From contig NZ_BAED01000048.1 in NCBI RefSeq assembly GCF_000241345.1, positions 62,001 through 126,000 of the forward strand: a stretch of 64,000 nt of DNA, written 5' to 3'. Source of the DNA: Gordonia amarae NBRC 15530 (GTDB lineage: Bacteria > Actinomycetota > Actinomycetes > Mycobacteriales > Mycobacteriaceae). The translations under genes and the position numbers were made by a program. Below the pieces are notes generated by a model. That model was given only the letters and a program-made list of their open reading frames with translations, searched no databases and was not told the origin of the DNA. Positions within the stretch are counted from its first letter, which is position 1. Each line of letters starts with the position of its first letter. Below are positions 13,612-33,919 of the stretch, piece by piece.

Positions 13612-15273
13612 ATGGCCGCCGACGCACCCGTGACAATTTTCGGTCCCGACTTCCCGTTCGCCTACGACGACTGGCTGCGCCATCCGGCGGGCCTGGGCAC
13701 CGTGCCCGACGAGGCGCTCGGTTCGGAGGTCGCGGTGATCGGCGCCGGGATGGCGGGCATGGTCGCCGCCTACGAACTGATGAAACTCGGCCTGAAACCG
13801 GTGGTGTACGAGGCCGAGCGGATCGGCGGCCGGCTGCGTTCGGAGCCGTTCGCGCCGGGGGAGCCGGAGATCGCCGAACTCGGCGGCATGCGGTTCCCGA
13901 TCTCGTCGCGGGCGTTCTTCCACTACGTCGACATGTTCGGGCTCAACGCCCAGCCGTTCCCCAATCCGCTCACCCCGGCGTCGGGGTCGACGGTCATCGA
14001 CATCGGTGGCGAGACCCTCTACGCCCGCACCCTCGACGACCTGCCGGAGATCTACCGGGAGATCGCGCACGCGTGGGATGCGGCGCTGGAACGGATCGCC
14101 GGGTTCACCGAACTGCAGGACGCGATACGGACACGCGATACGGCCGCGCTCAAGGATCGCTGGAACAAGCTCGTTCGCGAGTGGGACGACCGGAGCTTCT
14201 ACGACTTCCTGGCCACCTCCGACGAATTCGGGTCGTTGTCATACCGGCACCGGGAGTTGTTCGGGCAGGTCGGATTCGGTACCGGCGGCTGGGATTCGGA
14301 TTTCGCCAATTCGATGCTGGAGATTCTGCGGGTGGTGGTCACCAACTGCGACTCCGACCAGTTTCTGATCGAGGGCGGCTCCGAGCAGGTGCCGCGCGGA
14401 CTGTGGTCGCACGCGCCGGAGAACATCGCGCACTGGCCGGCCGGAACGAGCCTGGCCTCGCTGCATCGCGGGGTGCCGAGGGCGGGGGTCGCCAGGATCC
14501 GGCGCCTGGGTGCCGACCGGATCGAGGTCACCGACCGGTGGGGAGACGCGCACGTGTACCCGGCGGTCGTCGCGACCTGCCAGGCCTGGCTGCTGTCGAC
14601 GGAGATCGACTGCGACGAATCGCTGTTCAGCCAGGACATGTGGATGGCGCTGGACCGGACCCGCTACATGCAATCGTCCAAGACGTTCGTGATGGTGGAC
14701 CGGCCGTTCTGGAAGGACGTCGACCCGGATACCGGCCGCGACGTGATGAGCATGACACTGACCGACAGGCTCACCCGCGGCACGTATTTCTTCGACAACG
14801 GACCCGACCGGCCCGCGGTGATCTGCCTCACCTACAGCTGGATGTCCGACGCGCTCAAAGTTCTGCCGCACCCGGTGGAACGACGTGTTGAATTGGCTTT
14901 GTCAGCATTACGAAAAATCTATCCGAACGTGGATATTGAAAGTCATATCGTGGGGCGGCCTTTGACTGTGTCATGGGAGGACGAGCCGCACTTTCTCGGC
15001 GCGTTCAAAGGCGCATTACCCGGGCATTATCGGTACAACACCCGGATGTACGGGCATTTTCACGGCCAGGAAAGGCTTCCCGACGCCGAGCGTGGGATCT
15101 TCATCGCCGGCGATGATGTATCGTTCATGCCAGCCTGGGTGGAGGGGGCTGTCCAGACCGGTTTGAATGCCGTGTGGGGTGTTCTTTCGCATTTCGGTGG
15201 CCGCACATCACCCGATAACCCGGGGCCGGGCGACGTGTACGCTCGGTTGGGTCCCATCGACATCGGAGAATGA
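13612..15273 (+). CDS. FAD-dependent L-amino acid monooxygenase/oxidase, tryptophan 2-monooxygenase-like
   Basis: 553-residue flavin amine-oxidase family protein, close in length to IaaM (about 557). The FAD motif GAGMAGMVAAYELMKLG is near residue 42 and is followed by YEAERIGGRLRSE; the C-terminus closes with IFIAGDDVSFMPAWVEGAV, the typical second FAD segment. Tryptophan and phenylalanine 2-monooxygenases oxidatively decarboxylate an L-amino acid to the amide, and this protein has their layout (an N-terminal FAD half with ELGGMRFP). It overlaps a nitrilase-family amidase by 4 bases, giving the two-step amide route to an acid (indole-3-acetamide to auxin if Trp is used). TAGCGT ends 7 bases before the ATG, suggesting a leaderless mRNA. 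A patch near 14885-15070 is AT-richer than the rest. Confidence 0.78.
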   Translation: MAADAPVTIFGPDFPFAYDDWLRHPAGLGTVPDEALGSEVAVIGAGMAGMVAAYELMKLGLKPVVYEAERIGGRLRSEPFAPGEPEIAELGGMRFPISSRAFFHYVDMFGLNAQPFPNPLTPASGSTVIDIGGETLYARTLDDLPEIYREIAHAWDAALERIAGFTELQDAIRTRDTAALKDRWNKLVREWDDRSFYDFLATSDEFGSLSYRHRELFGQVGFGTGGWDSDFANSMLEILRVVVTNCDSDQFLIEGGSEQVPRGLWSHAPENIAHWPAGTSLASLHRGVPRAGVARIRRLGADRIEVTDRWGDAHVYPAVVATCQAWLLSTEIDCDESLFSQDMWMALDRTRYMQSSKTFVMVDRPFWKDVDPDTGRDVMSMTLTDRLTRGTYFFDNGPDRPAVICLTYSWMSDALKVLPHPVERRVELALSALRKIYPNVDIESHIVGRPLTVSWEDEPHFLGAFKGALPGHYRYNTRMYGHFHGQERLPDAERGIFIAGDDVSFMPAWVEGAVQTGLNAVWGVLSHFGGRTSPDNPGPGDVYARLGPIDIGE

Positions 15274-16121
15274 GTGCCGTGCCCGAGACGTTGACCATCG
15301 CCCTGTGGCAGTGCGAGCCGCTGCCCCCGGTCGAGTCGTTGCTGGGCGATCACACCGTCGCCGAGAACCTGGAGCGTCTGGACGCCAAGATGGCGGAGGT
15401 CGCGGGCACCGTCGAGCTGCTGGTCACCCCCGAGATGTTCGTCGGCGGATACAACGTCGGGGCAGAGGCCGCGCGCCTGCGGGCCGACCCGGCGCTGCGG
15501 GACATGACCGTTCCGCCCGTCGACGGTTCTGTCGCGGACGCGGTGTCGCACATGTGCGCCAAGCATGGCGTCGCCGTCGTCTACGGCTGCGCCGAGATCG
15601 CCGACGACGGCTCGGTCTACAACACCGCGCGCCTGGTCGACGCCACCGGCACCCATCTGGGCAGCCATCACAAGACGCATTTGTTCGGCGAGCTCGATCG
15701 GGAGATGTTCACCGCCGGCGCCGATCGGGCGCCGGTGATCGAATTCGGTGGCTGGCATATCGGTCTGCTGATCTGCTACGAGGTCGAGTTTCCCGAGATG
15801 GCTCGCTCGCTGGCGGCACGCGGTGCCGATCTCGTCTGCGTGCCCACCGCCAATATGGCCCAGTACAACGACGTGCAGCGGGTGCTGCTGCCGGCCCGGG
15901 CGCTGGAGAACCAGGTGTTCCTCGCCTACGCCAACGGCGTCGGCACCGAAGGTGACATCACGTACGGCGGGCTGAGCACCATCCTCGGACCCACCGGTAT
16001 GTCGGTGGCCGACAGGGGCGGGGCACCCGACCTCGTCACCGCGACGATCGTCCGCACCGACATCAAACGCGCACGCGGCCAGTTCTGCTACCTCGACGAC
16101 GTCAACCGCGACGTCCACTGA
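15270..16121 (+). CDS. Carbon-nitrogen hydrolase (nitrilase superfamily), probable amidase
   Basis: 283-residue nitrilase-superfamily enzyme with the Glu-Lys-Cys triad: Glu55 in LLVTPEMF, Lys135 in HHKTHLFG and Cys169 in LLICYEVEFPE. Members cleave nitriles or, more often, amides to acids. Its ATG overlaps the stop of the monooxygenase gene (ATGA), so the two enzymes are made together. The amide product of the monooxygenase is the obvious substrate, in place of the amidase-signature enzyme IaaH used by plant-associated bacteria. A branched-chain or aryl amide from another amino acid is equally possible. It is probably cytoplasmic, as no signal peptide is seen. Confidence 0.85.
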   Translation: MSAVPETLTIALWQCEPLPPVESLLGDHTVAENLERLDAKMAEVAGTVELLVTPEMFVGGYNVGAEAARLRADPALRDMTVPPVDGSVADAVSHMCAKHGVAVVYGCAEIADDGSVYNTARLVDATGTHLGSHHKTHLFGELDREMFTAGADRAPVIEFGGWHIGLLICYEVEFPEMARSLAARGADLVCVPTANMAQYNDVQRVLLPARALENQVFLAYANGVGTEGDITYGGLSTILGPTGMSVADRGGAPDLVTATIVRTDIKRARGQFCYLDDVNRDVH

Positions 16122-16139
16122 CCCGGCATCGGCTGGCAC

Positions 16140-16164
16140 GCCCCCGTCTCGTCGACGGCGGGGC
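16140..16164. terminator. GC-rich hairpin between convergent units
   Basis: gcccccgtc / gacggcggggc imperfect stem between the amidase gene (plus) and the serine hydrolase gene (minus). There is no clear T-run. Confidence 0.45.
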
Positions 16165-16181
16165 CTGAGAATATGCCGCCG

Positions 16182-17696
16182 CTACCCGGCGACCACGCGG
16201 TAGTGGTCGGTGACCAACGACGGTTCGCCCTCGGGTTTGCGGCCGCCGGCGTCGGCCACTGACATCGAGAACCGTTGGACCAGTGGGGTATTGAGGCCGA
16301 TCAAGTCGATATCACAGAGCAGCGCGCCGCGCTGGCACTGGATCGACCACCGCAGGTGCGCCGGATCGGACGCTGACACGATGCGTTCGGTGAAGTCGCG
16401 GCCGTCGTCGACGATCGACCCGGTGGCCGACAGCGCCTCGGACAGGCGGCGTTCCCGGACCTCGACGGGTATATCACGCAGGACATTGCGGGTGAACAGC
16501 CCCGCCGCAGCCGCGATGGGGCGCCTGCCTCGGACGATGGAGTCCAGTTCTTCGGCCGCGGCAAGGGTTTCCGGCCACGGCCTGATGGTCTCCGCCGGCG
16601 CGTCCAGCCGGGTCAGTACGTCGGCGAGGATGTCGGTGGCCACCCGTGCGGCGGGGAAGTCGTCGGAGTTGCCGAACACCACCACCCCGAAACCAGTCGC
16701 CGGATGCCAGCGCATGTGTGAGCCGAATCCGGGCAACGAACCCGAATGTGCGCACACCCGGCCGAAACGGTGATCGAGCTCGACGACGAGTCCGTAACCG
16801 TAACCGGCGCCGTCGAGTTCGCGGTCTCCCGCGTGCCGGTTGGTGGTGGGGATGACCGTGCGGGGAGTCTGCATCCGGCGCCGCGCCGCCGCCGACAGCA
16901 CCTCGCCGGTGCCGGACGGGCCGAACGCCGCGCCCAGGAATCCCATCCAGGTGGCGATGTCGCCGACCGTGCTGAACAGGTCGCCGATACAGCCCAGCGC
17001 ACCCGAGGCCAGAAAGGGTTCGGGCGCGAAAGTCGCACCGCCGTCGAACGTCCGGAAGCCGTATGCCAGGTCGGCATCCGCCGGATACGACGACGCCTCG
17101 TTGCGGGTGTCCGCCAGCCCCAGGGGTTCCAGGATGCGTTCGCGCACAACGTCGAACACCGATCGCCCGGTCAGCACCTCGATCGCCCGGCCCACCAGGG
17201 CGATACCGAGATTGGAGTAGCGGTATTCGGTGCCGGGGGTGATCGGCAGCCGCAGACCGTCGGTGAGAACGCCGGTCAGCCACTCGCGGGATTCGCCCAG
17301 GTGCTCATCGCCCCACGGATTGTCCTCCGCCAGGCCCGCCCGGTTGCACAGCAGGTCGTCGAGTGTCGGGTCGATCTGCTCGGAACCGTAACGGGCGGAG
17401 GATAGTTCGGGGACGAGGGTGCGGGCACGGGCATGCAGATCCAGGGTCCCGTCTTCGGCGAGCGACAGTGCCGTCGCCGCGAGGAACGACTTGGACATCG
17501 ACGCGATCCGGAACACTGTGCGCGCCGTGGTGGCGGCACCGTCGCGGCGCGGTTCGCCGTGCGTGTGCGCGGCCACCACCCGCCCGGCGTAGGTGACGGC
17601 GGCGACGGCGGCCGGGGCCACCCGCAGCGCACCGCTGTCCAGCATGGACGTCAAGGCGGTGTCGGCGACCTGCCCGATCATCGTGTCGCCGGTCAC
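16182..17696 (-). CDS. Serine hydrolase, class C beta-lactamase/S12 family
   Basis: 504-residue penicillin-recognising hydrolase, without a signal peptide. The nucleophile motif is SMSK (Ser66-Lys69), YSN is at 160-162, and HSG occurs in the HSGSLPGFG stretch, all in the order of class C enzymes. About 130 C-terminal residues form an extra domain. Relatives include D-aminopeptidases, D-amino acid amidases, esterases and DD-peptidases; being cytoplasmic, this one probably acts on imported molecules rather than defending the wall. The GTG start overlaps the stop of the glutamine amidotransferase gene by 4 bases. It is the last gene of the coupled operon running from 23173 down. Confidence 0.87.
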   Translation of the reverse strand: MTGDTMIGQVADTALTSMLDSGALRVAPAAVAAVTYAGRVVAAHTHGEPRRDGAATTARTVFRIASMSKSFLAATALSLAEDGTLDLHARARTLVPELSSARYGSEQIDPTLDDLLCNRAGLAEDNPWGDEHLGESREWLTGVLTDGLRLPITPGTEYRYSNLGIALVGRAIEVLTGRSVFDVVRERILEPLGLADTRNEASSYPADADLAYGFRTFDGGATFAPEPFLASGALGCIGDLFSTVGDIATWMGFLGAAFGPSGTGEVLSAAARRRMQTPRTVIPTTNRHAGDRELDGAGYGYGLVVELDHRFGRVCAHSGSLPGFGSHMRWHPATGFGVVVFGNSDDFPAARVATDILADVLTRLDAPAETIRPWPETLAAAEELDSIVRGRRPIAAAAGLFTRNVLRDIPVEVRERRLSEALSATGSIVDDGRDFTERIVSASDPAHLRWSIQCQRGALLCDIDLIGLNTPLVQRFSMSVADAGGRKPEGEPSLVTDHYRVVAG

Positions 17697-18391
17697 CGGC
17701 CGAGGACCTCGGCCGCGAAGGCATCCGTCATCCGCCGTGCGGCGACGGTGTTGTCGGCGTCGACGCGGCGTGCGCCGTCGATCAGCTCATCCAGCGAGTA
17801 GCCCTCACCGGCGAGTGCCGCATCCTCCCATTCACGCAGGTCCTCGGCGGCGACCTCGGGATGGAACTGGACGCCGCGGACGTGCTCGCCGAGCCGGAAG
17901 GCCTGATTCGCAACAGCGTCCGAGGACGCGAGCAGTACCGCATCGGCAGGCAGCCGGGTGATCATGTCCTCGTGGTTCTCGATCATCGGTGCACCGGCAC
18001 CGAGCGTGGCCAGCACCGGGTCGCCGGTGCCGGCCGTGGTCGGCAGGATCTCGACGGCGCCGCGTTCGACCGGACCGAATGACTTGCGTACCTCGCCGCC
18101 CGCGATGTCGGCGAGAAGCTGCCCGCCCAAACAGATTCCGAAGGTGGGCAGGTCGGCGTCGACGGCGCGGGCCGCCAGTTCGCGCTCGGCGCGGAGCCAC
18201 GGGGCGCGATCGAACTCGTCGGGCATGAATCCGCCGCCCAGCATCACCAGTCCGTCGACACCGGACAGGGAGTCGGGCACCCCGTCCGGTGCGTGGACGG
18301 TGACCACGTCGAGCCCGGCGTCGGCGAGCCAGCCCGCCATGCGCCGCGGCGGCGACGTGGCGGCGTTGATGATGACCAGAACGGTACTCAC
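17693..18391 (-). CDS. Class I glutamine amidotransferase domain protein
   Basis: 232-residue stand-alone class I GATase of the GuaA-like group. The nucleophile is Cys87 in FGICLGGQ, and His177 with Glu179 in FHPEV complete the triad. No synthetase domain is attached, so it may be a gamma-glutamyl hydrolase (PuuD-like), or supply ammonia or accept a gamma-glutamyl group for a partner. In this operon, among peptidases, hydrolysis of a gamma-glutamyl bond, as in gamma-D-Glu of murein peptides or gamma-glutamyl conjugates, is an attractive but unproven role. Its GTG start lies 2 bases after the dipeptidase stop, and its own stop overlaps the serine hydrolase start. Confidence 0.85.
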   Translation of the reverse strand: MSTVLVIINAATSPPRRMAGWLADAGLDVVTVHAPDGVPDSLSGVDGLVMLGGGFMPDEFDRAPWLRAERELAARAVDADLPTFGICLGGQLLADIAGGEVRKSFGPVERGAVEILPTTAGTGDPVLATLGAGAPMIENHEDMITRLPADAVLLASSDAVANQAFRLGEHVRGVQFHPEVAAEDLREWEDAALAGEGYSLDELIDGARRVDADNTVAARRMTDAFAAEVLGR

Positions 18392-18393
18392 GA

Positions 18394-19554
18394 CTATGTG
18401 CCCACCTGTTCTCTCGGGGAAGTGTTCGCCGGACGCATACCGGCGGAGCTTGATTCGGCGGCGTGCCGGCCCGCCACGTCGACGGCGGGGACGAAGGCGG
18501 CCTCGCCGGGGAGGTCCGCCGCACCGGCGAGGAACCGGGCGTGGTCGGCGTCGGCGACCTCGAGCACGCGCAGGATGTTGGTGTGGGCGGCGGCAACCAG
18601 GTCGGCCTCCGACCAGCCGCGGCCGCGCAGTTCGCCGAGCAGTCGCTGATAGCCGCCGACGTCGCCGAGACCGTCGGGCATGGCGTCGGTGCCGTCGTAG
18701 TCGGCGCCCAGACCCACCGCCCCGATACCGGCGACCTCTCGGATGTGGTCGAGATGATCTGCCACATCGGCGATCCCGACCGGTGGCGGGTCGCCGTGCT
18801 CGCCCGCGTTCACCCAGTCGCGCCGCGCGTCGGTCAGGAACGACGGCACGAACGCCACCATCGCCACACCGCCCGCCGCGCCGATGCTCGTCAGCACGTC
18901 GTCGGGTACGTTCCGGGGGTGATCGCACAACGCCCGCGCACCCGAATGCGAGGTGATGAGCGGGCGTTCGGAGACCTCCAGCGCGTGACGCATCGTGGTG
19001 GGTGCGACGTGCGCGATGTCCACGAGCATGCCGATGCGGTTCATCTCCCGCACCACCTGCCTGCCGAAGTCCGACAGCCCGCCGTGCCGCGCCTCGTCGG
19101 TGGCCGAGTCCGCCCAGTCGATGGTGCGCGACCAGGTGAGCGTCATATACCGCACACCCGCCCGCGCGTAGGCGCGCAGCACCGCGAGCGAACCGTCGAT
19201 CTGTGCGCCGCCCTCCACGCCGAGCAGCGACGCGATCCGGCCCGACGCCATCACCCGGCGCACATCGTCGGCGGTGCGGGCCACCGCCAGATGCTTCGGA
19301 AAAGCGTCGACGAGCCGGTGCACGAAATCGATCTGTTCCAGCGTTGCCGTCACCTGCTCGGCACCCCGCAACACCGGATCAACCCACACCGACCAGAACT
19401 GGCCGCGCACCCCGCCGGCGTGCAGACGCGGAATGTCGGTGTGCAGGTGGGGGACCGGGCCGTCGAGCCCGTCGACATGGTAGGCGCGGGTCTCCCGGCA
19501 TGCCCACGCCAGATCGTTGTGGCCGTCGATCACCGGAATCATCGGCGCCGTCAC
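18394..19554 (-). CDS. Membrane dipeptidase-type peptidase, M19 family
   Basis: 386-residue zinc dipeptidase of the renal-dipeptidase family (amidohydrolase fold). Metal ligands are seen in DGHND (His12, Asp14), in the LLGVEGG Glu, and in the later SHSGARALCDHPRN region with the ADYDGTD loop. M19 enzymes cut dipeptides and accept a D-residue at the C-terminal side, and renal dipeptidase also opens some beta-lactams. There is no signal peptide, so it should act in the cytoplasm on imported dipeptides. The GTG start overlaps the stop of the aminotransferase gene (GTGA). Confidence 0.9.
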   Translation of the reverse strand: MTAPMIPVIDGHNDLAWACRETRAYHVDGLDGPVPHLHTDIPRLHAGGVRGQFWSVWVDPVLRGAEQVTATLEQIDFVHRLVDAFPKHLAVARTADDVRRVMASGRIASLLGVEGGAQIDGSLAVLRAYARAGVRYMTLTWSRTIDWADSATDEARHGGLSDFGRQVVREMNRIGMLVDIAHVAPTTMRHALEVSERPLITSHSGARALCDHPRNVPDDVLTSIGAAGGVAMVAFVPSFLTDARRDWVNAGEHGDPPPVGIADVADHLDHIREVAGIGAVGLGADYDGTDAMPDGLGDVGGYQRLLGELRGRGWSEADLVAAAHTNILRVLEVADADHARFLAGAADLPGEAAFVPAVDVAGRHAAESSSAGMRPANTSPREQVGT

Positions 19555-20435
19555 CTCTCGCGCGCCCCGAGGGCGTCGTTCATCATCGCGGTCACGTCAT
19601 GGTCGACGGCAACCGGCGTGCCGTCGAGGCTGCGGACCGGTGCAGCGCCACGGGTCGAGGAGCACAGCCACATCGCGTCGGCGCGGCTCAGGTCGGCGGG
19701 AAACAGCTCGCCCACCCGGGTCTGCGCACCGACGAGATCGAGGGCGGCGAACACGTCGCCCTGCGTGGTGCCGGGCAGCACGCCGAGCGAGGTGGGGATG
19801 GTGACGTAAGTGCTGTCGATCCGGGCGATCAGCGTCGAGTTGGGGCCTTCGAGGACGTAGCCGTCTGAGCTGACGAAGATGACGTCGTGGGCGCCGCGCC
19901 GGGCCGCCTCCCGCAGCGCCGCCTTGTTGATCGCGTAGGCGAGGGTCTTGGCGCCCTGCAGCAGCCACGGTGAGGTCTCGCTGACGTCGTGCCGGTAGCC
20001 ACGATCGAGCAGTACCACGTCGATCCCGTCGAGCCGGGCCCGGGTGGGGTCGTCGGGGACGAAACCGTACGCGAAACCGGTGGGGATCTCCTCGGTTTCG
20101 ACCCCGCGCGTCATCACGAACTTGACCGCCGCGAACGGGGCGTGCGGTGCCATCTCGGCGGCGGTGACCTCGACGGCGCGACGCCACAACTCCCGTTCGG
20201 GGACGGGCAGATCCATCATGGCCGCCGATCGGGCGAAGCGGTCGAGATGCGGGTCCATCGCCTGCGGCAACCCGTGGTGCACGAGGATCGTCTCGAAGAT
20301 CCCGTCGCCGCGGGTCACCCCGAGGTCGTCGGTGCGCAGCACGGCGTCGGTGACCTCGCGCCGCGTGATGACGGCGTCGGGGTCGTCGCCGGCGGGCCGG
20401 GACAGGTCGAGGACGTACAGGGTGAGTGGCTGCAT
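19551..20435 (-). CDS. Class IV PLP aminotransferase (aminodeoxychorismate lyase/D-amino acid aminotransferase-like)
   Basis: 294-residue fold-type IV PLP enzyme. RGDGIFETI is near 42, the PLP lysine is probably Lys163 in GAKTLAYAINKAALR, and DVIFVSSDGYVLEGPNST supplies Glu196. By sequence it looks closest to aminodeoxychorismate lyase (PabC) of actinobacteria. The operon context (racemase, dipeptidase, amidases) makes a D-amino acid transaminase equally likely, since the two activities are hard to separate by motif. The ATG at 20435 has a short ggaaag ribosome site. It ends in a 4-base overlap with the M19 gene. Confidence 0.82.
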   Translation of the reverse strand: MQPLTLYVLDLSRPAGDDPDAVITRREVTDAVLRTDDLGVTRGDGIFETILVHHGLPQAMDPHLDRFARSAAMMDLPVPERELWRRAVEVTAAEMAPHAPFAAVKFVMTRGVETEEIPTGFAYGFVPDDPTRARLDGIDVVLLDRGYRHDVSETSPWLLQGAKTLAYAINKAALREAARRGAHDVIFVSSDGYVLEGPNSTLIARIDSTYVTIPTSLGVLPGTTQGDVFAALDLVGAQTRVGELFPADLSRADAMWLCSSTRGAAPVRSLDGTPVAVDHDVTAMMNDALGARER

Positions 20436-20469
20436 GCGGTGTTTCTTTCCGGTGTGTCGAGTGCCGGGG

Positions 20470-21597
20470 TCAGGCGGCGTCGTCGTCGCTGCTGTCGAAG
20501 CCGCGCAGGGTGTTCTGCTCCACCCAGTGCATGTCGACCTCGTGGCCGATGCCGGGCCCGGTGGGGACGGTGACGACGCCGTCGTGGGCAATCACCGGCG
20601 GTGTGATGACGTCGCGGGCGTAGTACTTGTCCGACCCCGACACGTCCGAGGGCAGGGTGAATCCGGGCAGCGACGAGATGGCGACGTTGGCGGCGCGGCC
20701 CACCCCGAACTCGTGCATCCCGCCGCACCACACCGGGATTCCCGCGTCGGTGGCCACGTCGTGGGCCTCCCGCGCCACCGTCAGGCCACCCATCCGGGAC
20801 ACCTTGATGTTGAGCACCCGGCCGGCCTTCATCGCGATCATCGTGTGCAGGTCGTGCACGTCCACCACCGACTCGTCCAGGCAGACGGGGGTGCCGATCC
20901 TGCTCTGCAGGCGCGAGTGGGCGACGAAATCCCTTGGTGCGTAAGGTTGCTCGATCATCGTCAACTCGGCGTCGTCGAGGGTGGTGAACACCTTGGCCGA
21001 CGCGTCGTCGTCGGGGTAGGCGCCGTTGGCGTCGACGTGCAGGTCGAGGCCCGGGTGTGCGGCGCGTACCGCGGCGACGGGTTCGGTGTCCCAGCCCGGT
21101 GCGATTTTGAGCTTGACCCGCCGGTAGCCGGCGTCGACTTGGTGCTGCACCTGCACGAGCAGATCGTCGATGGTGGGTTCGATGCCGAGCGACACCCCGG
21201 CCACCACCTCGGAGCGGGTGCCGCCGAGCGCCGCCGCCAGCGGGGTTTCGGTGGTGCGGGCGTACAGATCCCATGCGGCACCGGAGAATCCGGCCTTGGC
21301 GAATTCGTGCCCACGGATCTTGGCCCAACTCGCCTCCAGCTCGGCGGGTGTCTCCCACTCGGTGTCGAGGGCGCGCGGCACGAGATAGTCGATGGCGATG
21401 TCGAAGGCCGTTTCCGTCGTCTCCGAGCAGTAGTACGGGTCGGCGGGGGAGGCGATCTCGCCCCAGCCGGTGCGGCCGTCGGCGTCGGTGGCCGCGACGA
21501 GCAGATGGGTGAGGCCGGACTTGCGGTGCGAACTGGTCTGGAAACTGTGCACCAGATGCAGCCGCACCTCGAAGATGCGGAGCCGTTCGAGCCTCAT
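20470..21597 (-). CDS. N-succinylamino acid racemase / o-succinylbenzoate synthase-type enolase
   Basis: 375-residue enolase-superfamily enzyme of the NSAR/OSBS group. Catalytic Lys164 is in KLKIAPGWD, the metal ligands are Asp189 (DANGAY), Glu216 (IEQP) and Asp241 (CLDES), and the second Lys265 is in NIKVSRMGG, the same numbering as known racemases. Dipeptide epimerases usually differ in the KIAPGWD stretch, so NSAR is preferred. Enzymes of this kind racemise N-succinyl amino acids. Beside a COG3375 acyltransferase and an M20 deacylase they form the described path turning D- into L-amino acids. The WCGGMHEFGVGRA stretch differs from the usual GGMLETGIGRA. Its ATG overlaps the SIS-protein stop. 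Confidence 0.88.
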   Translation of the reverse strand: MRLERLRIFEVRLHLVHSFQTSSHRKSGLTHLLVAATDADGRTGWGEIASPADPYYCSETTETAFDIAIDYLVPRALDTEWETPAELEASWAKIRGHEFAKAGFSGAAWDLYARTTETPLAAALGGTRSEVVAGVSLGIEPTIDDLLVQVQHQVDAGYRRVKLKIAPGWDTEPVAAVRAAHPGLDLHVDANGAYPDDDASAKVFTTLDDAELTMIEQPYAPRDFVAHSRLQSRIGTPVCLDESVVDVHDLHTMIAMKAGRVLNIKVSRMGGLTVAREAHDVATDAGIPVWCGGMHEFGVGRAANVAISSLPGFTLPSDVSGSDKYYARDVITPPVIAHDGVVTVPTGPGIGHEVDMHWVEQNTLRGFDSSDDDAA

Positions 21598-24404: not shown

Positions 24405-24455
24405 TGGTCGTAGTGTTTCCTCGACAGCCCTGACGGGCCGTTCGCTGGGCGATGA

Positions 24456-24466: not shown

Positions 24467-24514
24467 TCTTTGCTGCGGTATGTGTGTGCTGGCTGGTGGT
24501 GCGGAACCGTGAAG

Positions 24515-24525: not shown

Positions 24526-24696
24526 TAGGCGAATCGGACATATTGACGGCATTTCGGGTGGCTTTACCGGTGTTTCGTGCCGGTTAAGTTCTTCGGGATA
24601 TGTTGCGCATGTCCGGGCCGGACCACATCATTTCTGGCAGCAGACCTTGCGGGGATGACTGGCCTCGGTCCGGTCCTGAACAGAGGAAGAACGCAC

Positions 24697-26502: not shown

Positions 26503-26521
26503 GAGCGGGAAGGAGCCAGTC

Positions 26522-27571
26522 GTGACCGCCGACCCCGCCCAGATACTCCCGGTGAGTCCGGGATCCGAACCGGGCAAGGACATCGACGAACCGCCCCGCG
26601 GATCATCGATATACCGCTACGCCCTGACCAAGATCGGTGGCGCGCTCATCTCGCTGATCATGGTCATCCTCGTCGGGTTCTTCGCCTTCAAGATCCTGCC
26701 CGGCGACCCCGTGGCCAAACAGGCCAAGGAACGGGCGATGAGCCAGGAACAGATCGACGCGCTGCGACATCAGCTCGGTCTGGACAAGTCGCTGATCGCC
26801 CAGTTCTGGGACTACCTCGGCGACATCTTCACCTTCAAGTTCGGCACCAGCTACGTGTACCAGCAGTCGGTGTCGAGCCTGATCGGCGAATACTTCTGGA
26901 ACACCATCCTGCTCACCGGTACCGCCGCCACCCTGGCGATCGTGCTCGGATTGTGGCTCGGTCAGCGGGCCGCGTGGAAGCGTGGATCCTGGTTCGACAA
27001 GATCACCTCGGGCACGTCGCTGCTGCTGTGGTCGGTGCCCACCTTCTGGCTCGGCCTGCTGCTGCTGATGGTGTTCGGCGGATCGCTGCACTGGTTCCCG
27101 ACCGGCGGCATGCACAGCCCGTCGCCGCCGGACGGGGCGTGGCAGACCTTCCTCGACGTCGTCTCGCACATGACCCTGCCGGTGGTCACCATGGTCGCGG
27201 TGGTGTACGCCCAGTACGTCATCGTGATGCGGACCTCGCTGATCGAGGAGATGAGCGCGGACTACCTGAACACCGCGCGCGCCAAGGGGCTGCGCGAGGA
27301 TCTGGTGCGCAGCCGGCACGCCGTACCCAACGCGCTGCTGCCGACGGTGACCCTGGTGTTCATGCACATCGGCGGCCTCATCGCCGGTGCGGTGACCGTC
27401 GAGACCGTGTTCTCGTGGCCGGGACTGGGCAAGCTCACCTACGAGGCGATCTCCGGTCCCGACCTGCCGCTGCTGCAAGGCACCTTCGTGGTGTTCTCGG
27501 CGATCATCATCCTGATGAATCTCGCCGCGGACTTCGTCTACCGAGTCCTCGACCCGAGAGTGAGACGCTGA
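26522..27571 (+). CDS. Peptide ABC transporter permease (DppB-like)
   Basis: 349-residue inner-membrane permease with six predicted helices after a 35-residue cytoplasmic lead. KIGGALISLIMVILVGFFAF is helix 1, FKILPGDPVAKQ is the DppB hallmark, and DYLNTARAKGLREDLVRSRHAVPNAL is the EAA loop that contacts the ATPase. The GTG at 26522 follows gggaaggag. It stops one base into the next gene (TGATG). With the second permease and the fused ATPase it forms the channel for the family 5 binding protein. Confidence 0.92.
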   Translation: MTADPAQILPVSPGSEPGKDIDEPPRGSSIYRYALTKIGGALISLIMVILVGFFAFKILPGDPVAKQAKERAMSQEQIDALRHQLGLDKSLIAQFWDYLGDIFTFKFGTSYVYQQSVSSLIGEYFWNTILLTGTAATLAIVLGLWLGQRAAWKRGSWFDKITSGTSLLLWSVPTFWLGLLLLMVFGGSLHWFPTGGMHSPSPPDGAWQTFLDVVSHMTLPVVTMVAVVYAQYVIVMRTSLIEEMSADYLNTARAKGLREDLVRSRHAVPNALLPTVTLVFMHIGGLIAGAVTVETVFSWPGLGKLTYEAISGPDLPLLQGTFVVFSAIIILMNLAADFVYRVLDPRVRR

Positions 27572-28506
27572 TGACCGCATCGAGTTCCGCCGCTCCGGAC
27601 GGCCCGAAAGCGGGCCGGTCGCCGCGGGCGATGATCTGGTCGCGCCGGCTCGCCGGGATGCGGGAGTTCTGGAACGAGTTCCGCAAGAGTAAATCCGGCA
27701 TGGCCGGGCTGATCTTCCTGCTCATCGTGATCGTGCTGGCCTTCCTGGCCCCGGTCATCGCACCCGATCACCTGCTGGATGTGACCACCCTCGGACATCA
27801 GCCCAAGTTCGGGCCACCGTCCTGGGATCACCCGCTCGGTACCGACGGCCTGCGCCGCGACATCGGAGTCCGGCTGGTGTGGGGTGCGCGCATCTCGCTG
27901 CTCGTGGGCTTCGCGGCCACCGCGATGTCGATGATCATCGGCACCATCGTCGGTATCGCCGTCGGCTACTTCACCGGGTGGTTCGGCGCGATCCTGATGC
28001 GGATCGTCGACTTCTTCCTGGTCATTCCGTCGCTGATCCTGGCGATCGTGCTGGCCGCGGTCCTCGACCGGGGCGTGTTCACCATCGTCATCGCGATCGG
28101 CCTCACCTCGTGGGCGGGCACCGCCCGGGTGGTGCGGGCGCAGACGCTCACCGTATCGGCGCGCGACTACGTCGACCGCTCCCGGGTCCTGGGTGCCGGC
28201 CACTGGCACGTCATCGTCAAGCACCTGTTGCCGGGGGTGCTGCCGCTGGTGCTGGCCAACACGACCCTGACCGTCGGCTCGGCCATCATCTCCGAATCGA
28301 CGCTGTCGTTCCTCGGCCTGGGCGATGCGACCAAGCAGTCGTGGGGCACCGTGCTGCAGAACGCACTCAGCGATTCGGCGGCGACCAGTGGGTACTGGTG
28401 GTACATCATGGCGCCCGGTCTGGCGATCGTCGCGGTGGTGATGGCGTTCACCATGATCGGCCGGACCGTGGAGGTCATCCTCAACCCGACCCTCAGAAGC
28501 AGGTAG
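27571..28506 (+). CDS. Peptide ABC transporter permease (DppC-like)
   Basis: 311-residue permease with an N-terminal cytoplasmic segment, a first helix (GMAGLIFLLIVIVLAFLAPVIA) and a periplasmic loop with HPLGTDGLRRD, typical of DppC/OppC. The EAA loop is DYVDRSRVLGAGHWHVIVKHLLPG, and SESTLSFLGLGDATKQSWG follows. The start overlaps the DppB-like gene by one base, and the stop is 4 bases before the ATPase gene, so the subunits should be made in equal amounts. Confidence 0.92.
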   Translation: MTASSSAAPDGPKAGRSPRAMIWSRRLAGMREFWNEFRKSKSGMAGLIFLLIVIVLAFLAPVIAPDHLLDVTTLGHQPKFGPPSWDHPLGTDGLRRDIGVRLVWGARISLLVGFAATAMSMIIGTIVGIAVGYFTGWFGAILMRIVDFFLVIPSLILAIVLAAVLDRGVFTIVIAIGLTSWAGTARVVRAQTLTVSARDYVDRSRVLGAGHWHVIVKHLLPGVLPLVLANTTLTVGSAIISESTLSFLGLGDATKQSWGTVLQNALSDSAATSGYWWYIMAPGLAIVAVVMAFTMIGRTVEVILNPTLRSR

Positions 28507-28510
28507 CGCA

Positions 28511-30166
28511 ATGCCCGATCTCGTTTTCGACGACGTCTCGATCATGTACCGCACCTCGGGACGCAACGACCGCGGCGAGGTGTACGCGGTCAAGAACATC
28601 AGCCTCACCCTGCCCGCCGGCGGCACTCTCGGGATCGCCGGCGAATCCGGGTCCGGCAAGTCGACGCTGATCTCCAGCGTGCTGCGGCTGCTGCCGAAGT
28701 CGTCGGTGCTCACCGGCACGGTGACCATCGGAGACACCGACGTCAACGACCTGACGTGGGGGCAGCTGCGGGCGGTGCGGTGGGCCCAGGCATCGATCGT
28801 GTTCCAGGGCGCGATGCACTCGCTCAACCCGGTGCGCACCATCGGCCAGCAGATCACCGAGGCACTCGAACTGCACGTCACCGACAAGTGGCGCACCGAG
28901 CAGGGCCGCAAGGACCGGGTGGCCGAACTGCTCAGGGTCGTCGATCTCACTCCGGCCAAGGCGAGGGCCTACCCGCACGAGCTGTCGGGCGGACAGAAGC
29001 AGCGCGCGATGATCGCCATGGCGCTGGCGTGCGAACCGGACATCATCATCGCCGACGAACCGACCACCGCGCTCGACGTGATCGTCCAGAAGCAGATCCT
29101 GGACATGATCAACCGGCTGGTCACCGAACGCGGCATCTCGCTGCTGATGATCAGTCACGACCTGTCGGTGCTGGCCACCGCGTGCGAGCGGATCGCCGTG
29201 ATGAAGGGTGGCGAACTCGTCGAGGTCGGCGATGCGTACACCATCTGCACCAGCCCCGCCGAGCCGTACACCCAGCAACTGGCGGCGGCGTTCCCGACGA
29301 TCGGCGACCCGGAGTCCCGGATGAAGCCGGTGACCCGGCGCGGGCGCCCCGACCGGCCACCGGTGGGCGAGCGTATCGAGATGTCCGAGGAGATCCTGCT
29401 CGAGGCGCGCGGGGTGAACGTCACCTTCGGCAGCGGGTCGGCGGCGCTGCACGTGCTGCACGATGTCGACATGGTGGTCCGCAAGGGCGAGATCGTGGCC
29501 TTGGTGGGCCAATCCGGTTCGGGCAAAACCACGTTGGCGAGGGCCATGATGGGTTTGCAGCCGGTGGACTCCGGTTCGGTGGTGCAATTCCGCGGTGAGG
29601 ACCTGCCCACCAGGGGCAAAGACGTGCGTGCCTTCCGCAAGAAGGTGCAGATGGTATTCCAGGACCCGTCCGCGGCATTGAACCCGAAGCTCAGCGTGTA
29701 CGAGTCGGTCGCCGAGGGCTTGCGGGTGCAGAAGTACCCGGGCGACGAACGCGCCCGCGTCATCGAAGCGCTCGAAGAGGCCGAACTGTTGCCCGCAGAG
29801 AACTATCTCGGGGCGATCCCGCAGGAGATGTCGGGTGGGCAGCGCCAGCGCGTGGTGATCGCCGGTGCGCTGGTGACCGGGCCGGAGATCCTCGTGGCCG
29901 ACGAGCCGGTGGCCTCGCTGGACGCATCGGTGCGCGGGGAGATCCTGTCGCTGATGCTCTCGCTGCGGGACCGGCTCGGGGTGAGCGCGCTGATCATCAC
30001 CCACGATCTGGGTCTGGCCTGGAACATCGCCGACACCGTCGCGGTGATCAACGAGGGCCGCATCATCGAGCACGGACCCACCGAGCAGGTGCTGCTGGAA
30101 CCGAAACACCCGTATACCCGCACCCTGCTCGACTCGGTACCCAAGATCGCCCCCGCGGAATCTTGA
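28511..30166 (+). CDS. Fused double ATPase of the peptide ABC transporter (DppD-DppF fusion)
   Basis: 551-residue protein with two complete nucleotide-binding domains. Domain 1 has Walker A GESGSGKST near 48, signature LSGGQ, Walker B IIIADEPTTALD and the EPYTQQL tail of DppD. Domain 2 has Walker A GQSGSGKTT near 338, signature MSGGQRQR, Walker B ILVADEPVASLD and the HPYTRTLLDS tail of DppF. Single-chain versions such as this are common in actinobacteria. It powers the two adjacent permeases. The following S66 fusion gene starts 27 bases after its stop. Confidence 0.93.
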   Translation: MPDLVFDDVSIMYRTSGRNDRGEVYAVKNISLTLPAGGTLGIAGESGSGKSTLISSVLRLLPKSSVLTGTVTIGDTDVNDLTWGQLRAVRWAQASIVFQGAMHSLNPVRTIGQQITEALELHVTDKWRTEQGRKDRVAELLRVVDLTPAKARAYPHELSGGQKQRAMIAMALACEPDIIIADEPTTALDVIVQKQILDMINRLVTERGISLLMISHDLSVLATACERIAVMKGGELVEVGDAYTICTSPAEPYTQQLAAAFPTIGDPESRMKPVTRRGRPDRPPVGERIEMSEEILLEARGVNVTFGSGSAALHVLHDVDMVVRKGEIVALVGQSGSGKTTLARAMMGLQPVDSGSVVQFRGEDLPTRGKDVRAFRKKVQMVFQDPSAALNPKLSVYESVAEGLRVQKYPGDERARVIEALEEAELLPAENYLGAIPQEMSGGQRQRVVIAGALVTGPEILVADEPVASLDASVRGEILSLMLSLRDRLGVSALIITHDLGLAWNIADTVAVINEGRIIEHGPTEQVLLEPKHPYTRTLLDSVPKIAPAES

Positions 30167-30192
30167 CGGGCGGCGCGGGTACGGTCGCAGGG

Positions 30193-32004
30193 GTGTACCG
30201 GCTCGCCTATCTCGACACCGCGCCGATCGTCGCGGGTGATCACGTGCGGATCATCGCCCCGGCCGGGCCGGTGACCGCCGAACAACTCGATCGGGCCGTG
30301 CGGTACTGCCGCGGCTGGGGGTGCGAGGTGAGCGTCGGCGAGCACGTGCTCGCCGGGCATCCGTCGGTGGCGTACCTCTCGGCGTCCGACGGGCCGCGCC
30401 GCGCCGACCTGGTGGCGGCGTGGACCGACCCGGACGTCGACGTGGTGCTGTGCGCGCGCGGCGGATTCGGTTCGATGCGTCTGCTCGACGCTCTCGACTG
30501 GGCGCTACTGCGGGACGGCACCGCCCGGCGCGACGGCAGGCCGACGCTGCTGGCCGGATCGAGCGACATCACCGCGCTGCACGAGGCATTCGCCCTGCAC
30601 CTGGACGTACCGACGCTGTTCTGCCCGATGCCCGCCACCGACGACTTCGACACATCGCCGACGATCCGCGCCGACGTGCGGCGGTGGCTGTTCGAGCCGT
30701 GGCGCGGACGCGACCTGATCGGCCCCGCCACCGAGACGATGGTCGCCGGCCGTGCCGCGGGTCGGCTCGGCGGGGGCACACTGTCATTGCTCGCCGCGGG
30801 CGTCGGCAGCCCGGAGGCCGCCGCCCGGTCCGGTGAGCTGCTGTTGCTCGAGGACGTCGATGAGGAGCCGTACCGGCTCGACAATCTGCTCGTGCAGCTC
30901 GACAGGTCGGGACGGCTCGCCGCCGCCGGGGCCGTCGTGCTCGGGTCCTGGCGCGACTGCGGTGACCCGGCCGCCGTGCGTGAGGTGATGGACCGATACC
31001 TGTCCGGACTCGGGGTGCCGGTGCTGTGGCAGCAGGGCTTCGGGCACGACCCGGACGCGCTGAGCGTGCCGCTGAACGTCGGCGCGATTCTCGACGCCAC
31101 CGGCGACGGCCGGCCCACGCTCACCGTCGGCGCTCTGCCCGACGCCCCCACGGCCCCGTTCCTGTTGCCCCCGTTGGATACCCGTGCGCGGTGGTCGGTG
31201 CGGATCGTCAACGCCGCCGACGGCGCCGTGCTCGCCGAACACACCCCGGACGTGCTGTGCAAGACCGCGAGCATCGGCAAGATCTTCCTGCTCATCGAGG
31301 TCGCCCGGCGGCTGGAGAGCGGCGAACTGTCGCCGGAGCAGCGCATCACGGTGCCACCGGAGCTGCACGTGCGCGACTCGGGGCTGCTGCACATGATGGC
31401 CTGGCATGACGTCGCGATCGCCGACGCCGCCCTGCTGGTGGGGGCGGTCAGCGACAACCTCGCCACGAACGCCCTGATCCACCTGTGCGGTCTCGACGCG
31501 GTGCGCGCCGTCGCGCCCGCGCTCGGCTACCGCGATACCACCCTCGTCGACTACATCCGGTCCGAACGGTTGCCGGGCATGCCGTGGACCGCCTCCTGCG
31601 GTACCGGTGCCGAACTGGCCGACCTGATGCGCCGTCTGGGTGAGGGGGACACAGAGGAGAGTTGCGAGGCAACGATCCTGACGCCGGGGGTGCGGGCGCG
31701 GGTGCTGGAGTGGCTGGCCGCCGGCGCGGACACGTCGATGGTCGCGGGCGGTATGCGCCTGGACCCGCTCGCCCATGTCGATCCCGTCGAGGACGGGGTC
31801 GTGCTGCGGCACAAGACCGGTACCATCGACACCGCCCGGATCGACGTCGGACATGTGGCCGGGCCCACCGGGCGCGTCGCCTACGCGGTGGCCGCGAACT
31901 GGGACGACGACGTCGCCTCCGGACACGACATGAGGTCGTCGGTGCTCGGTGCGATGGACACCATCGGCGAACGGATCCGGGCGCGGGTCACCGGGCGCGG
32001 GTGA
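30193..32004 (+). CDS. Fusion of S66 LD-carboxypeptidase and class A beta-lactamase-type hydrolase
   Basis: 603-residue two-domain enzyme. Residues 1-320 are an S66 LD-carboxypeptidase (LdcA/MccF family) with Ser124 in GSSDIT, Glu220 in LLLLEDVDEEPYRLDN and His285 in GFGHDPDALSVPL. Residues 335-603 are a class A serine hydrolase with Ser360-Lys363 (SIGK), Ser420-Asp-Asn (SDN) and Lys541-Thr-Gly. S66 enzymes remove D-Ala from murein tetrapeptide or cleave microcin C-type amides. No signal peptide is present, so both halves act inside the cell on imported material. TACGGT at 30180-30185 ends 7 bases before the GTG at 30193, suggesting an internal leaderless promoter; a TTG at 30163 overlapping the ATPase stop is the other possible start. 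Confidence 0.87.
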   Translation: MYRLAYLDTAPIVAGDHVRIIAPAGPVTAEQLDRAVRYCRGWGCEVSVGEHVLAGHPSVAYLSASDGPRRADLVAAWTDPDVDVVLCARGGFGSMRLLDALDWALLRDGTARRDGRPTLLAGSSDITALHEAFALHLDVPTLFCPMPATDDFDTSPTIRADVRRWLFEPWRGRDLIGPATETMVAGRAAGRLGGGTLSLLAAGVGSPEAAARSGELLLLEDVDEEPYRLDNLLVQLDRSGRLAAAGAVVLGSWRDCGDPAAVREVMDRYLSGLGVPVLWQQGFGHDPDALSVPLNVGAILDATGDGRPTLTVGALPDAPTAPFLLPPLDTRARWSVRIVNAADGAVLAEHTPDVLCKTASIGKIFLLIEVARRLESGELSPEQRITVPPELHVRDSGLLHMMAWHDVAIADAALLVGAVSDNLATNALIHLCGLDAVRAVAPALGYRDTTLVDYIRSERLPGMPWTASCGTGAELADLMRRLGEGDTEESCEATILTPGVRARVLEWLAAGADTSMVAGGMRLDPLAHVDPVEDGVVLRHKTGTIDTARIDVGHVAGPTGRVAYAVAANWDDDVASGHDMRSSVLGAMDTIGERIRARVTGRG

Positions 32005-32021
32005 GAACAGGAGCGGTGGGA

Positions 32022-33107
32022 GTGAGTGTGACCGTTGAGCGTCCGGGCGCGGTGTCCGGGCTCGACTGGACCGTGTTCCGGGGTGAACGGATCGACGTGA
32101 TGCGGGCGCTCGGCGACGAGCACTCCGACGCCATTATGGCGTGGCGGGCCCTCGTCGGCGGATCGTGGTCGGGTCTCATCGAATACGCCGACGGTTTCGC
32201 CGCGCAGCGGTTCGACGCGATCGTCGCCTCAAGCAAGCGGCTGCTGCCCACCGAATCGGCCGAACTCGCCGCGCTCGCCGACGGCGCCGGCATCCCCGAA
32301 CGGGACCTGTGGGTGCTCAACCTGCGCGGTGACCTCGGCCGCGACGGCACCGGCTGCTCGGACCTGGCGGGCCTGGCTGCCGACGGGGGAGTCCTGTTGG
32401 GGCACAACGAGGACGGCGACGCCGAGGTGCGGGAGCTGATCCGGCTGATCACCCTCGACATCGACGGCGACCCCTGCGTCACGGTGCTGTGGTATCCCGG
32501 CATGTTGCCGGCCAACTCGTTCGTCACCACCTCGGCGGGACTCAGCTTCGGGATGGACCACCTGCCCACCGCCGTGCCGAATCTCGGCGGTGCGGGCCGC
32601 CATCTGGTCGCCCGGCACGCTCAGCGGCAGACCGACGGCGCCGCCGCCCGTGCCGCGCTCACTGACGTGCCGTGCGCGGGTGCGTTCGCGTTCAACATGA
32701 TTGACGAACCCGGCGGGCGGGCCGATGTCATCGAGAACGTGTCCGGGCGGGTGGCCGCAGCCCGAGCCGAGACCGCTGCGATCCCACTGCGGCACGTCAA
32801 CCATCCGTGCCTGGTGCCCGACGGCACCCGCGGCATCCCCGACGACGACCGCTGGCTGGCCGAAAGCCGTGGCCGCGGAGCACTGTTGGAGGCCGGATCG
32901 GTGCGGGCGGCGACGGCCGCCGACGTGATGAGCGCACTGCGGGCGCCGGGGGTGCTGAACACCGAGGAGCACCTGTACACCTACGCCACCACCGTCGTCG
33001 ACACCGCACGGGGCAGGGTGCTGGTGCGCGGGCACGGCGACGAATGGGAGGGCGACCTGGCCGCGTTCGCCCGCGGACGCCGGGCGGCTCCGGTGGTGAC
33101 CGCATGA
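32022..33107 (+). CDS. C45-family Ntn hydrolase/acyltransferase (IAT-like)
   Basis: 361-residue protein of the C45 family, named after fungal isopenicillin N acyltransferase. The likely autoprocessing nucleophile is Cys112 in GTGCSDLA, followed by GHNEDGD, which resembles the GxNxD motif of the family. It should cut itself before Cys112 to give an active two-subunit amidase. Known members exchange or remove acyl groups on 6-APA, beta-alanyl-dopamine or N-acyl amino acids. It would suit removal of acyl caps from imported peptides or lactams. A ribosome site (acaggag) fits GTG 32022; GTG 32028 is possible. Its stop overlaps the next gene (ATGA). Confidence 0.8.
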   Translation: MSVTVERPGAVSGLDWTVFRGERIDVMRALGDEHSDAIMAWRALVGGSWSGLIEYADGFAAQRFDAIVASSKRLLPTESAELAALADGAGIPERDLWVLNLRGDLGRDGTGCSDLAGLAADGGVLLGHNEDGDAEVRELIRLITLDIDGDPCVTVLWYPGMLPANSFVTTSAGLSFGMDHLPTAVPNLGGAGRHLVARHAQRQTDGAAARAALTDVPCAGAFAFNMIDEPGGRADVIENVSGRVAAARAETAAIPLRHVNHPCLVPDGTRGIPDDDRWLAESRGRGALLEAGSVRAATAADVMSALRAPGVLNTEEHLYTYATTVVDTARGRVLVRGHGDEWEGDLAAFARGRRAAPVVTA

Positions 33108-33919
33108 CCTCGCTCGCCGACCGGTTGTGTTCGGTCGTCGGGGTGCGCTGGTCGGCACTGGCCGTCGACATCGACAGTGGCCGTGAACTGTTCGAACTCG
33201 ACGCCGACCGGGTGTGCGACACCGCCAGTATCGGGAAGGTCTTCCTCCTGCACCGGCTGCTCACCGAAGTCGACGCGGGCACACGGTCATTGGAGGACAC
33301 CGTCACCCGCAGGCCCGTCGAGTGGATGGACAACTCCGGTCTCTGGTATCTGCTGCACGCCGACACCCTGACGCTCTACGACGTGGCCGCGCTGATCGGG
33401 GCCGTCAGCGACAACGCCGCCACCAACACGCTGGCGCGGGTCGTCGGCCTCGACGCCGTCCAGGAGCACACCCGCGACCTGGGTTACCACGACTCCGGAC
33501 TGAATGATGTTGTCCGCTGGCCTATTCCGCCGGGCGCACCCGGCATGCTGTCGCACGGCACCGCCCGCGAACTGGTCCGGTTCTGTGCCCGGCTGGCCAC
33601 CGGGGCCGATCTGTCCCACGCGTCGGCCGAAACCCTGCGGCGCTGGCTCGGTGCCGGCATGGACCTGTCGATGGTCGCCTCCGCGTTCGGCCTCGACCCG
33701 CTCGCGCACTACTACTTCGACCGCGGAATCTGGTTGTGGAACAAGACCGGAACCATCTCCACGGTGCGCGCCGACATCGGCGTGGTCATGTCACAGACGC
33801 GGCGCATCGCCTATGCGGTACTGGCCAACTGGGATTCGGGCGCCGATGTGCGTGACGATGTCCTCGCCGCCATGCGCGCGGCCGGGGACGTACTCCGCGC
33901 CGAACTCGGTTTCGCCTGA
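33104..33919 (+). CDS. Class A beta-lactamase-like serine hydrolase without signal peptide
   Basis: 271-residue class A-fold hydrolase, similar to the C-terminal half of the S66 fusion two genes upstream. It has Ser42-Lys45 (SIGK), SDN at 102-104 and Lys214-Thr-Gly. No ExxLN omega-loop motif is visible in the stretch after SDN (GYHDSGLNDVVRWP follows), so the deacylating Glu166 of true beta-lactamases seems absent. There is no export signal. Both facts argue against antibiotic resistance and for an intracellular D-peptidase, amidase or esterase. The two class A domains probably arose by duplication. It is the last gene of the plus-strand operon. Confidence 0.82.
   Translation: MTSLADRLCSVVGVRWSALAVDIDSGRELFELDADRVCDTASIGKVFLLHRLLTEVDAGTRSLEDTVTRRPVEWMDNSGLWYLLHADTLTLYDVAALIGAVSDNAATNTLARVVGLDAVQEHTRDLGYHDSGLNDVVRWPIPPGAPGMLSHGTARELVRFCARLATGADLSHASAETLRRWLGAGMDLSMVASAFGLDPLAHYYFDRGIWLWNKTGTISTVRADIGVVMSQTRRIAYAVLANWDSGADVRDDVLAAMRAAGDVLRAELGFA

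Follow-up and report, generated by a model that had tools for sequence, protein, structure and literature searches.

The window analyzed here, a 64,000-nucleotide stretch of the Gordonia amarae NBRC 15530 genome (contig NZ_BAED01000048.1, positions 62,001 to 126,000 of the forward strand), contains 15 genes at 16182–33919 that place a peptide importer next to amino acid-converting enzymes and a series of hydrolases. This locus raises the question of what such a gene set takes up and degrades. An original prediction, made from the DNA letters alone, proposed the import and stepwise breakdown of peptides or lactams with D-residues, and our analysis partly supports that interpretation. Breakdown of D-amino-acid-containing peptides is, in our assessment, a likely function of the cluster. 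The fuller reading, which is somewhat less secure but still favored, is that of a probably transferred regulon for scavenging small D-amino-acid-rich peptides, most likely murein stem peptides and their fragments. For murein as the main source, the considerations on the two sides are about evenly balanced.

The cluster consists of a seven-gene operon on the minus strand and a divergent eight-gene arm on the plus strand. Pfam and NCBIfam profile searches, together with the gene models, confirmed these two predicted groups and an adjoining convergent two-gene unit. In the order of transcription, the minus operon encodes a GNAT N-acyltransferase (22319–23173; a presumed D-amino acid N-acyltransferase), an RpiR-type SIS-domain protein that lacks a helix-turn-helix (HTH) domain (21594–22322), an N-succinyl/N-acylamino acid racemase of the NSAR/OSBS subfamily in the enolase superfamily (NSAR; 20470–21597), a class IV aminotransferase of the aminodeoxychorismate lyase/D-amino acid transaminase group (19551–20435), an M19 renal-dipeptidase-type metallopeptidase (18394–19554), a class I glutamine amidotransferase-like amidase (GATase; 17693–18391), and an S12 serine hydrolase with the class C fold (16182–17681). 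The plus arm starts with an M20 amidohydrolase (23268–24404; a presumed N-acyl-L-amino acid deacylase), which is followed by a 292-bp gap and then by genes for a family 5 peptide-binding protein (substrate-binding protein, SBP; 24697–26502), DppB/OppB-type and DppC/OppC-type permeases of a peptide ATP-binding cassette (ABC) importer (26522–27571 and 27571–28506), the fused double ATPase of this importer (28511–30166), a protein that joins an S66 LD-carboxypeptidase to a class A serine-hydrolase domain in one open reading frame (ORF; 30163–32004), a C45 autoproteolytic acyltransferase/amide hydrolase (32001–33107), and a second class A-fold serine hydrolase (33104–33919). All families named in the prediction are thus present, but the SIS protein had been omitted and one of the two class A domains turned out to be part of the S66 fusion. 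Among the 13 gene junctions, six are 4-bp overlaps and one is a 1-bp overlap. The plus arm had been described as a single operon; because 292 bp and an operator-like site separate M20 from the SBP gene, it is probably two transcription units. Judged from hydropathy, the SBP is the sole non-permease protein with a clear export signal, and the hydrolases, including the second class A protein, have no clear signal peptide, as had been predicted.

Evidence for a common function comes from other bacteria. Scanning named genomes with the SIS alignment identified 64 loci, of which 31 belong to Microbacteriaceae (20 Microbacterium, five Leucobacter, three Agrococcus, two Agromyces, and one Pseudoclavibacter), 32 to other groups, and one to Gordonia (L103); the S66-class A fusion, when used to scan named genomes, gave no match. 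Genes were counted by tblastn at 38% identity or more (50% or more for the importer genes), and the counts are lower bounds given that many loci stop at the 10-kb flank or at a contig end; the two class A genes cross-match each other and are not usable as counts. The Microbacteriaceae loci all contain NSAR, SIS, and GNAT (31/31), and most contain M20, M19, and GATase (29/31 each), S12 (27/31), the permeases, the ATPase, and S66 (25/31 each), the SBP (23/31), and the aminotransferase (18/31). The combination of GNAT, NSAR, and M20 is found in the window and in 29 of the 31 loci. Nearly the whole set, in the gene order of the window, is shared by Microbacterium and some Leucobacter, and every gene of the set is present in Microbacterium pullorum (L101, G437). 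The versions in Agrococcus and Agromyces are rearranged or incomplete: S12 was not seen in Agromyces, and no Agrococcus locus has the importer (0/3). The second class A gene was found at 56% identity or more in 20 of the 21 Microbacteriaceae genomes that were searched whole, and in the three Microbacterium that have C45 this gene lies between the two class A genes, as in the window. Outside Microbacteriaceae and Gordonia, M20, SIS, and NSAR are present in 31/32 loci (the exception, L144, is a short match), and GNAT in 29/32 loci, with two more at 36–37% identity. The divergent core, with M20 facing GNAT-SIS-NSAR, is retained in other actinobacteria. The gene set is more than a chance neighborhood, for its members are found together in further families of bacteria. 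The original prediction had raised the possibility that these genes do not stay together elsewhere, which is not what was found; the co-occurrence, which was to be sought in Gordonia, Rhodococcus, and Nocardia, was found in Microbacteriaceae, with Gordonia represented by this genome and two decayed copies. Within Microbacterium the system is accessory: an SIS homolog with at least 62% identity was found in 25 of 198 sampled genomes, one of which (G593, scoring as G422) was possibly counted twice.

Gene fusions and a shared palindrome link the parts further. Stop-free frames join M19 to GATase in nine Microbacterium loci, GATase to S12 in three Leucobacter loci, and NSAR to the aminotransferase in two Agromyces loci, and the S66 and class A parts that form a single ORF in the window are two genes in Microbacterium. 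The palindrome GATACGnnnCGTATC (at least 10 of 12 positions) is found in 49 of the 54 divergent M20-GNAT promoters with a usable gap among the 64 loci, at a density of 4.68 per kb compared with 0.034 per kb elsewhere in the same loci, and also in 17 of 20 SBP promoters. Shuffled palindromes reached maxima of 11 (core; 300 draws) and 8 (importer; 297 draws), with at most 179 of them distinct. In the window, the SBP promoter has a 10/12 copy, GATCCGTTACGGATC, at 24454–24468. A one-mismatch pattern search in eight genomes returned one to nine sites per genome and zero to three for the reversed pattern; in one genome (G431) the reversed-pattern control (three) exceeded the true pattern (one site). 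Because the same palindrome precedes the core and the importer genes, the minus and plus arms look like one regulon. Among related loci of other composition, no GATACGnnnCGTATC site at 10/12 was found in L027 and L028, whose importer and S66 are accompanied by an RpiR-like regulator with an HTH domain (judged by eye) and by a gene clustering with the M55 D-aminopeptidase gene of locus L076; of the five NSAR loci that lack SIS, L076–L078 have no site and L079 and L080 have one each, distant from the NSAR gene.

For the core, family membership and grouping point to conversion of D- to L-amino acids by the N-acyl route, presumably carried out by GNAT, NSAR, and M20. The GNAT protein is barely detectable in Pfam (E 0.0039; no match at E 0.001) and is recognized through its synteny and a 15-row alignment with 34 invariant columns. 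NSAR scores 275 bits against TIGR01928 (cut-off 200.65) and stays far under the cut-offs of the dipeptide epimerase models (61.9 and 59.2 bits; cut-offs 343 and 500). It groups with solved N-acylamino acid racemases in PDB, with 1sja first, and retains the lysine pair and acid positions that we take to be the catalytic lysines and metal ligands. The chemistry of NSAR is covered in PMC8142540. A role for NSAR as the menaquinone enzyme of this genome was ruled out by a separate MenC elsewhere (449 bits). A second homolog of the class IV aminotransferase is likewise found elsewhere in the genome. The SIS protein, encoded between GNAT and NSAR, is predicted by AlphaFold (pLDDT 85) to have a poorly predicted tail followed by one long helix that runs into the SIS domain. 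Foldseek placed 3sho (RpiR) at ranks 1–4 and MurR at rank 5, and the N-terminal HTH domain of the RpiR/MurR regulators is absent from this protein, its 28 aligned rows being only 210–242 residues long. SIS domains that bind sugar phosphates carry a Ser/Thr-rich loop. Because SLRRYRRET stands in place of this loop, the ligand may be other than a sugar phosphate. The protein is probably a ligand sensor.

Several of the hydrolase folds have D-specific relatives. M19 (Pfam, 349.8 bits) is closest to 3id7 (366.5 bits), which we take to be a Streptomyces L-D dipeptidase. In S66, conserved blocks with Ser, Glu, and His, to which we assign the catalytic roles, are present in 11/11 rows. S12 has invariant SxxK, YxN, and HxG motifs in 19/19 aligned rows, and the Foldseek matches of its AlphaFold model (pLDDT 88) include, after the first, R61 DD-peptidase, ClbP, alkaline D-peptidase, D-stereospecific amidohydrolase, and D-amino acid amidase, so that D-specificity is likely on the basis of this model. 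The class A domains retain SxxK, SDN, and KTG. GATase, which carries GICLG and HPE, has gamma-glutamyl peptidase 1 among the solved relatives that it matches, a relation that offers no more than a hint to its function. C45 scores 134.5 bits against NF040521 (cut-off 85) and had no match to solved structures up to E 0.1. In addition to the N-terminal signal, the SBP has a C-terminal membrane segment and no lipobox, as do 22 of 23 related SBPs (the exception ends in a run of unknown residues).

These parts can be arranged into a route of which the substrates and the order of steps are proposed. The membrane-anchored SBP and the ABC importer would take up peptides, S66 would trim C-terminal D-Ala-type residues in the cytosol, M19 would cleave L-D dipeptides, and the S12 and class A-fold serine hydrolases may act as D-specific amino- or carboxypeptidases. 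GATase could act on gamma-glutamyl bonds or side-chain amides, and C45 could open an acyl bond or a non-alpha amide. D-amino acids freed in this way would be N-acylated by GNAT, racemised by NSAR, and deacylated in the L-form by M20, or alternatively transaminated by the class IV aminotransferase, with the SIS protein as the putative ligand sensor. The predicted import and stepwise cytosolic breakdown of peptides with D-residues is supported by the co-occurrence of the genes, and it is the fusions and the shared palindrome that tie the parts together. If this is true, the cluster would give actinobacteria nearly all the genes needed to feed on D-amino-acid peptides released from cell walls, and this route apparently moves between bacterial families. 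It would also offer a candidate regulon with an operator and a sensor candidate, and point to functions for beta-lactamase-like proteins of the cytosol, which might otherwise be mistaken for resistance genes. A bolder version, which we put forward tentatively and regard as rather doubtful, is that of a mobile murein-peptide economy that is self-contained and has a palindromic operator of its own. In such an economy, cytosolic S12 and class A enzymes would have been turned into D-peptidases, GNAT/NSAR/M20 would replace a dipeptide epimerase, the class I GATase would replace a gamma-D-glutamyl endopeptidase, and the HTH-less RpiR domain would serve as a split sensor whose ligand is a peptide or D-amino acid and not a sugar phosphate.

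Several observations weigh against the murein-peptide regulon. The SBP matches do not indicate a murein peptide (DppE, 69.7 bits; MppA, 61.1 bits; best match, 119.2 bits), and a Pfam scan at E 0.001 found no NlpC/P60 endopeptidase, muramyl amidase, or amino-sugar enzyme among the cluster genes. The score of the aminotransferase against the aminodeoxychorismate lyase family lies slightly below the cut-off (263.2 vs. 273). The first match of the S12 model is an archaeal PBP homolog, and esterases, LACTB, and AmpC also match. Both window class A domains have an acid, Asp, at the place of Glu166, and C45 was found in only five of the 21 relatives searched whole. As for the regulon, the template for GATACGnnnCGTATC was taken from the same promoters that were later counted, and the loci are related. 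Moreover, the divergent promoter region of the window (23174–23267) holds only two degenerate 8/12 copies, one of which extends into the GNAT start, and the six one-mismatch sites in the whole window genome include none on the contig of the window.

Among the other explanations, the one that survives best is that the target is not murein but a secondary metabolite or antibiotic peptide, such as a non-ribosomal lipopeptide, a siderophore, or another D-amino-acid peptide, with C45 as the deacylase and the serine hydrolases cutting at D-residues. The presence of C45 next to several hydrolase folds with D-specific relatives fits this possibility, as does the patchy spread among Microbacterium genomes, which would be expected of an accessory island. 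However, C45 is missing in 16 of the 21 relatives searched, S66, a murein-type carboxypeptidase, is present in most Microbacteriaceae loci, and other actinobacteria have the core without these hydrolases, so that we consider this explanation unlikely. Still less probable is a juxtaposition of two or three unrelated units, one for D-to-L conversion of amino acids, one for general peptide import, and one of mixed hydrolases. Such a view could draw on the four-gene core of Jiangella, Kribbella, and others, which stands by itself or has different partners, on the importer arm of Agromyces, which is inverted relative to M20, and on Agrococcus, in which two of three loci lack M20, but it conflicts with the identical composite order in Microbacterium and some Leucobacter, with the three kinds of fusion, and with the same palindrome ahead of both arms. 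Finally, a beta-lactam detoxification or catabolism island, in which lactams are opened and degraded by the class C and the two class A proteins together with M19 (a renal-type dipeptidase) and C45 (of the penicillin acyltransferase type), is suggested by these family names, by the ability of renal-type dipeptidases to open carbapenems, and by the Asp in both window class A domains, which might serve as a base, but it is very improbable because clear signal peptides are absent, because the Glu166 place (fixed via the following Leu) has no Glu in 15 rows (D in five, R in four, N in two, and H, A, Q, and S in one each, thus 10 non-acidic), because S12 carries HxG instead of the KTG of class C beta-lactamases, because the beta-lactamase models among the NCBIfam matches listed (25 of 41 families in one listing) score far under their cut-offs, and because GNAT/NSAR/M20 and S66 would be left unexplained. 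Lactams, which the original prediction had included among the substrates, consequently have little support, and beta-lactam degradation was rejected as the principal explanation, with some room left by the window Asp.

The scavenging of D-amino-acid peptides can be compared with known systems. In Geobacillus kaustophilus, D-amino acids are converted to L-amino acids by a GNAT protein, an N-succinylamino acid racemase, and an M20 protein. The same three families are clustered in the window, which adds the SIS protein between GNAT and NSAR, the importer, the aminotransferase, and seven further hydrolase domains. The window class A domains weakly match TLL2115 (2j7v; 27 to 30 bits), presumably PBP-A of Thermosynechococcus, and the similarity in this fold is therefore distant. 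In PMC11189452, PBP-A is described as a class A beta-lactamase-like DD-peptidase that prefers muropeptides amidated on D-iso-glutamate. Compared with class A beta-lactamases, the window domains lack Glu166 and a clear export signal. In Bacillus subtilis, according to PMC2954226, the dpp-linked ykf set trims murein peptides, and the likeness to the window lies in an ABC importer of the dipeptide type that is accompanied by an S66 LD-carboxypeptidase and an isomerase of the enolase superfamily. However, the window has NSAR in place of the L-Ala-D/L-Glu epimerase (YkfB), and the Pfam scan found among its cluster genes neither an NlpC/P60 gamma-D-glutamyl endopeptidase (YkfC) nor an M55 D-aminopeptidase (DppA), the latter being present in locus L076. 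It also adds GNAT, M20, M19, GATase, S12, class A, and C45. By analogy, the cluster would work like dpp-ykf joined to the GNAT/NSAR/M20 conversion, but, lacking the epimerase, NlpC/P60, and M55, it is not a dpp-ykf member. In the open-access literature searched, from which most subscription journals are absent, no title was found that describes the whole gene set; this agrees with the claim that no described system has the full set, although the two systems above cover large parts of it. What is new is the combination of known parts, likely with its own regulon.

The distribution within Gordonia is compatible with acquisition from another family. The gene kgd was found in 59/59 Gordonia genomes searched, and 27 of the 30 kgd loci examined (all except those of the window genome, G000, and of G021 and G027) have no cluster gene within a flank of about 1.5 kb. 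Two close Gordonia carry decayed remnants of the cluster. In G021 (L205:6650–11245), M20, an internally gapped GNAT, SIS, NSAR, and the aminotransferase lie between a davBA-like pair and kgd, and in G027 (L206:3806–5613) the same site retains a truncated SIS, NSAR, and a small fragment of the aminotransferase. A search of 36 congeners with the S66-class A fusion gave no match in 33 of them; in the other three, the matches were weak and partial and fell in the class A half (E 3e-6 to 6e-4). A tree built from NSAR, SIS, and M20 in concatenation (61 rows, rooted with Kribbella) places the window and L205 inside Microbacteriaceae with support 98; at an inner node with support 68, they group with Microbacterium, Leucobacter, and Agrococcus, leaving Agromyces and Pseudoclavibacter outside. 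The simplest reading is that the cluster was probably transferred from Microbacteriaceae, with a weak inner node.

Next to the cluster lies the convergent pair, which encodes a flavin amino acid oxidase/monooxygenase (13612–15273) and a nitrilase-family (CN_hydrolase, Pfam) amidase (15270–16121). The former matches 3we0, an L-amino acid oxidase/monooxygenase, with 918 bits, and we take the substrate of 3we0 to be lysine. The pair is present in 17 other Gordonia loci (L178–L194) that have no cluster genes within a flank of about 1.5 kb, and neither of its genes turned up in the 63 named loci outside Gordonia, which extend no further than 10 kb from the SIS gene. On this evidence, the proposal that the pair is part of the D-peptide system was rejected. 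It looks like a separate unit, probably of the davBA type, with lysine as a substrate suggested by the 3we0 match. The lysine 2-monooxygenase/5-aminovaleramidase pair DavBA (PMC5054628, PMC4980613) similarly places an oxidase/monooxygenase beside an amidase and likely accounts for the pair at 13612–16121 outside the cluster.

The neighborhoods of related cores vary in composition, and a D-amino-acid theme recurs beside them with differing parts. Locus L076 (G160, 6853–17860), which has neither the SIS protein nor the palindrome, combines in a single row an importer, GNAT, NSAR, an M55 D-aminopeptidase, M20, and S66. In L084 (15174–16430), S12 is followed by an FAD enzyme that resembles D-amino acid dehydrogenase (166 bits vs. 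a family cut-off of 383), and its gene cluster is found in 4/5 Leucobacter loci (one member scanned). Among the 32 loci outside Microbacteriaceae and Gordonia, a GntP/CitMHS-like permease group occurs in 11 and an Amidohydro_3 gene group in 17 (one member of each scanned). Downstream of S12, ten Microbacterium loci have a second, distant peptide importer (25–37% identity; L081:16400–20669), and a few have Amidohydro_3 and S58 peptidase genes beyond S12 (L088:16087–18715). In seven loci of Microbacterium and two of Agromyces, a C39-like peptidase gene separates the importer arm from M20 (L087:6866–7891; one member scanned). Finally, in Kribbella (L126:3934–16012) the core is located near miaA- and hflX-like genes, as judged by eye, and dapF (TIGR00652, above cut-off).

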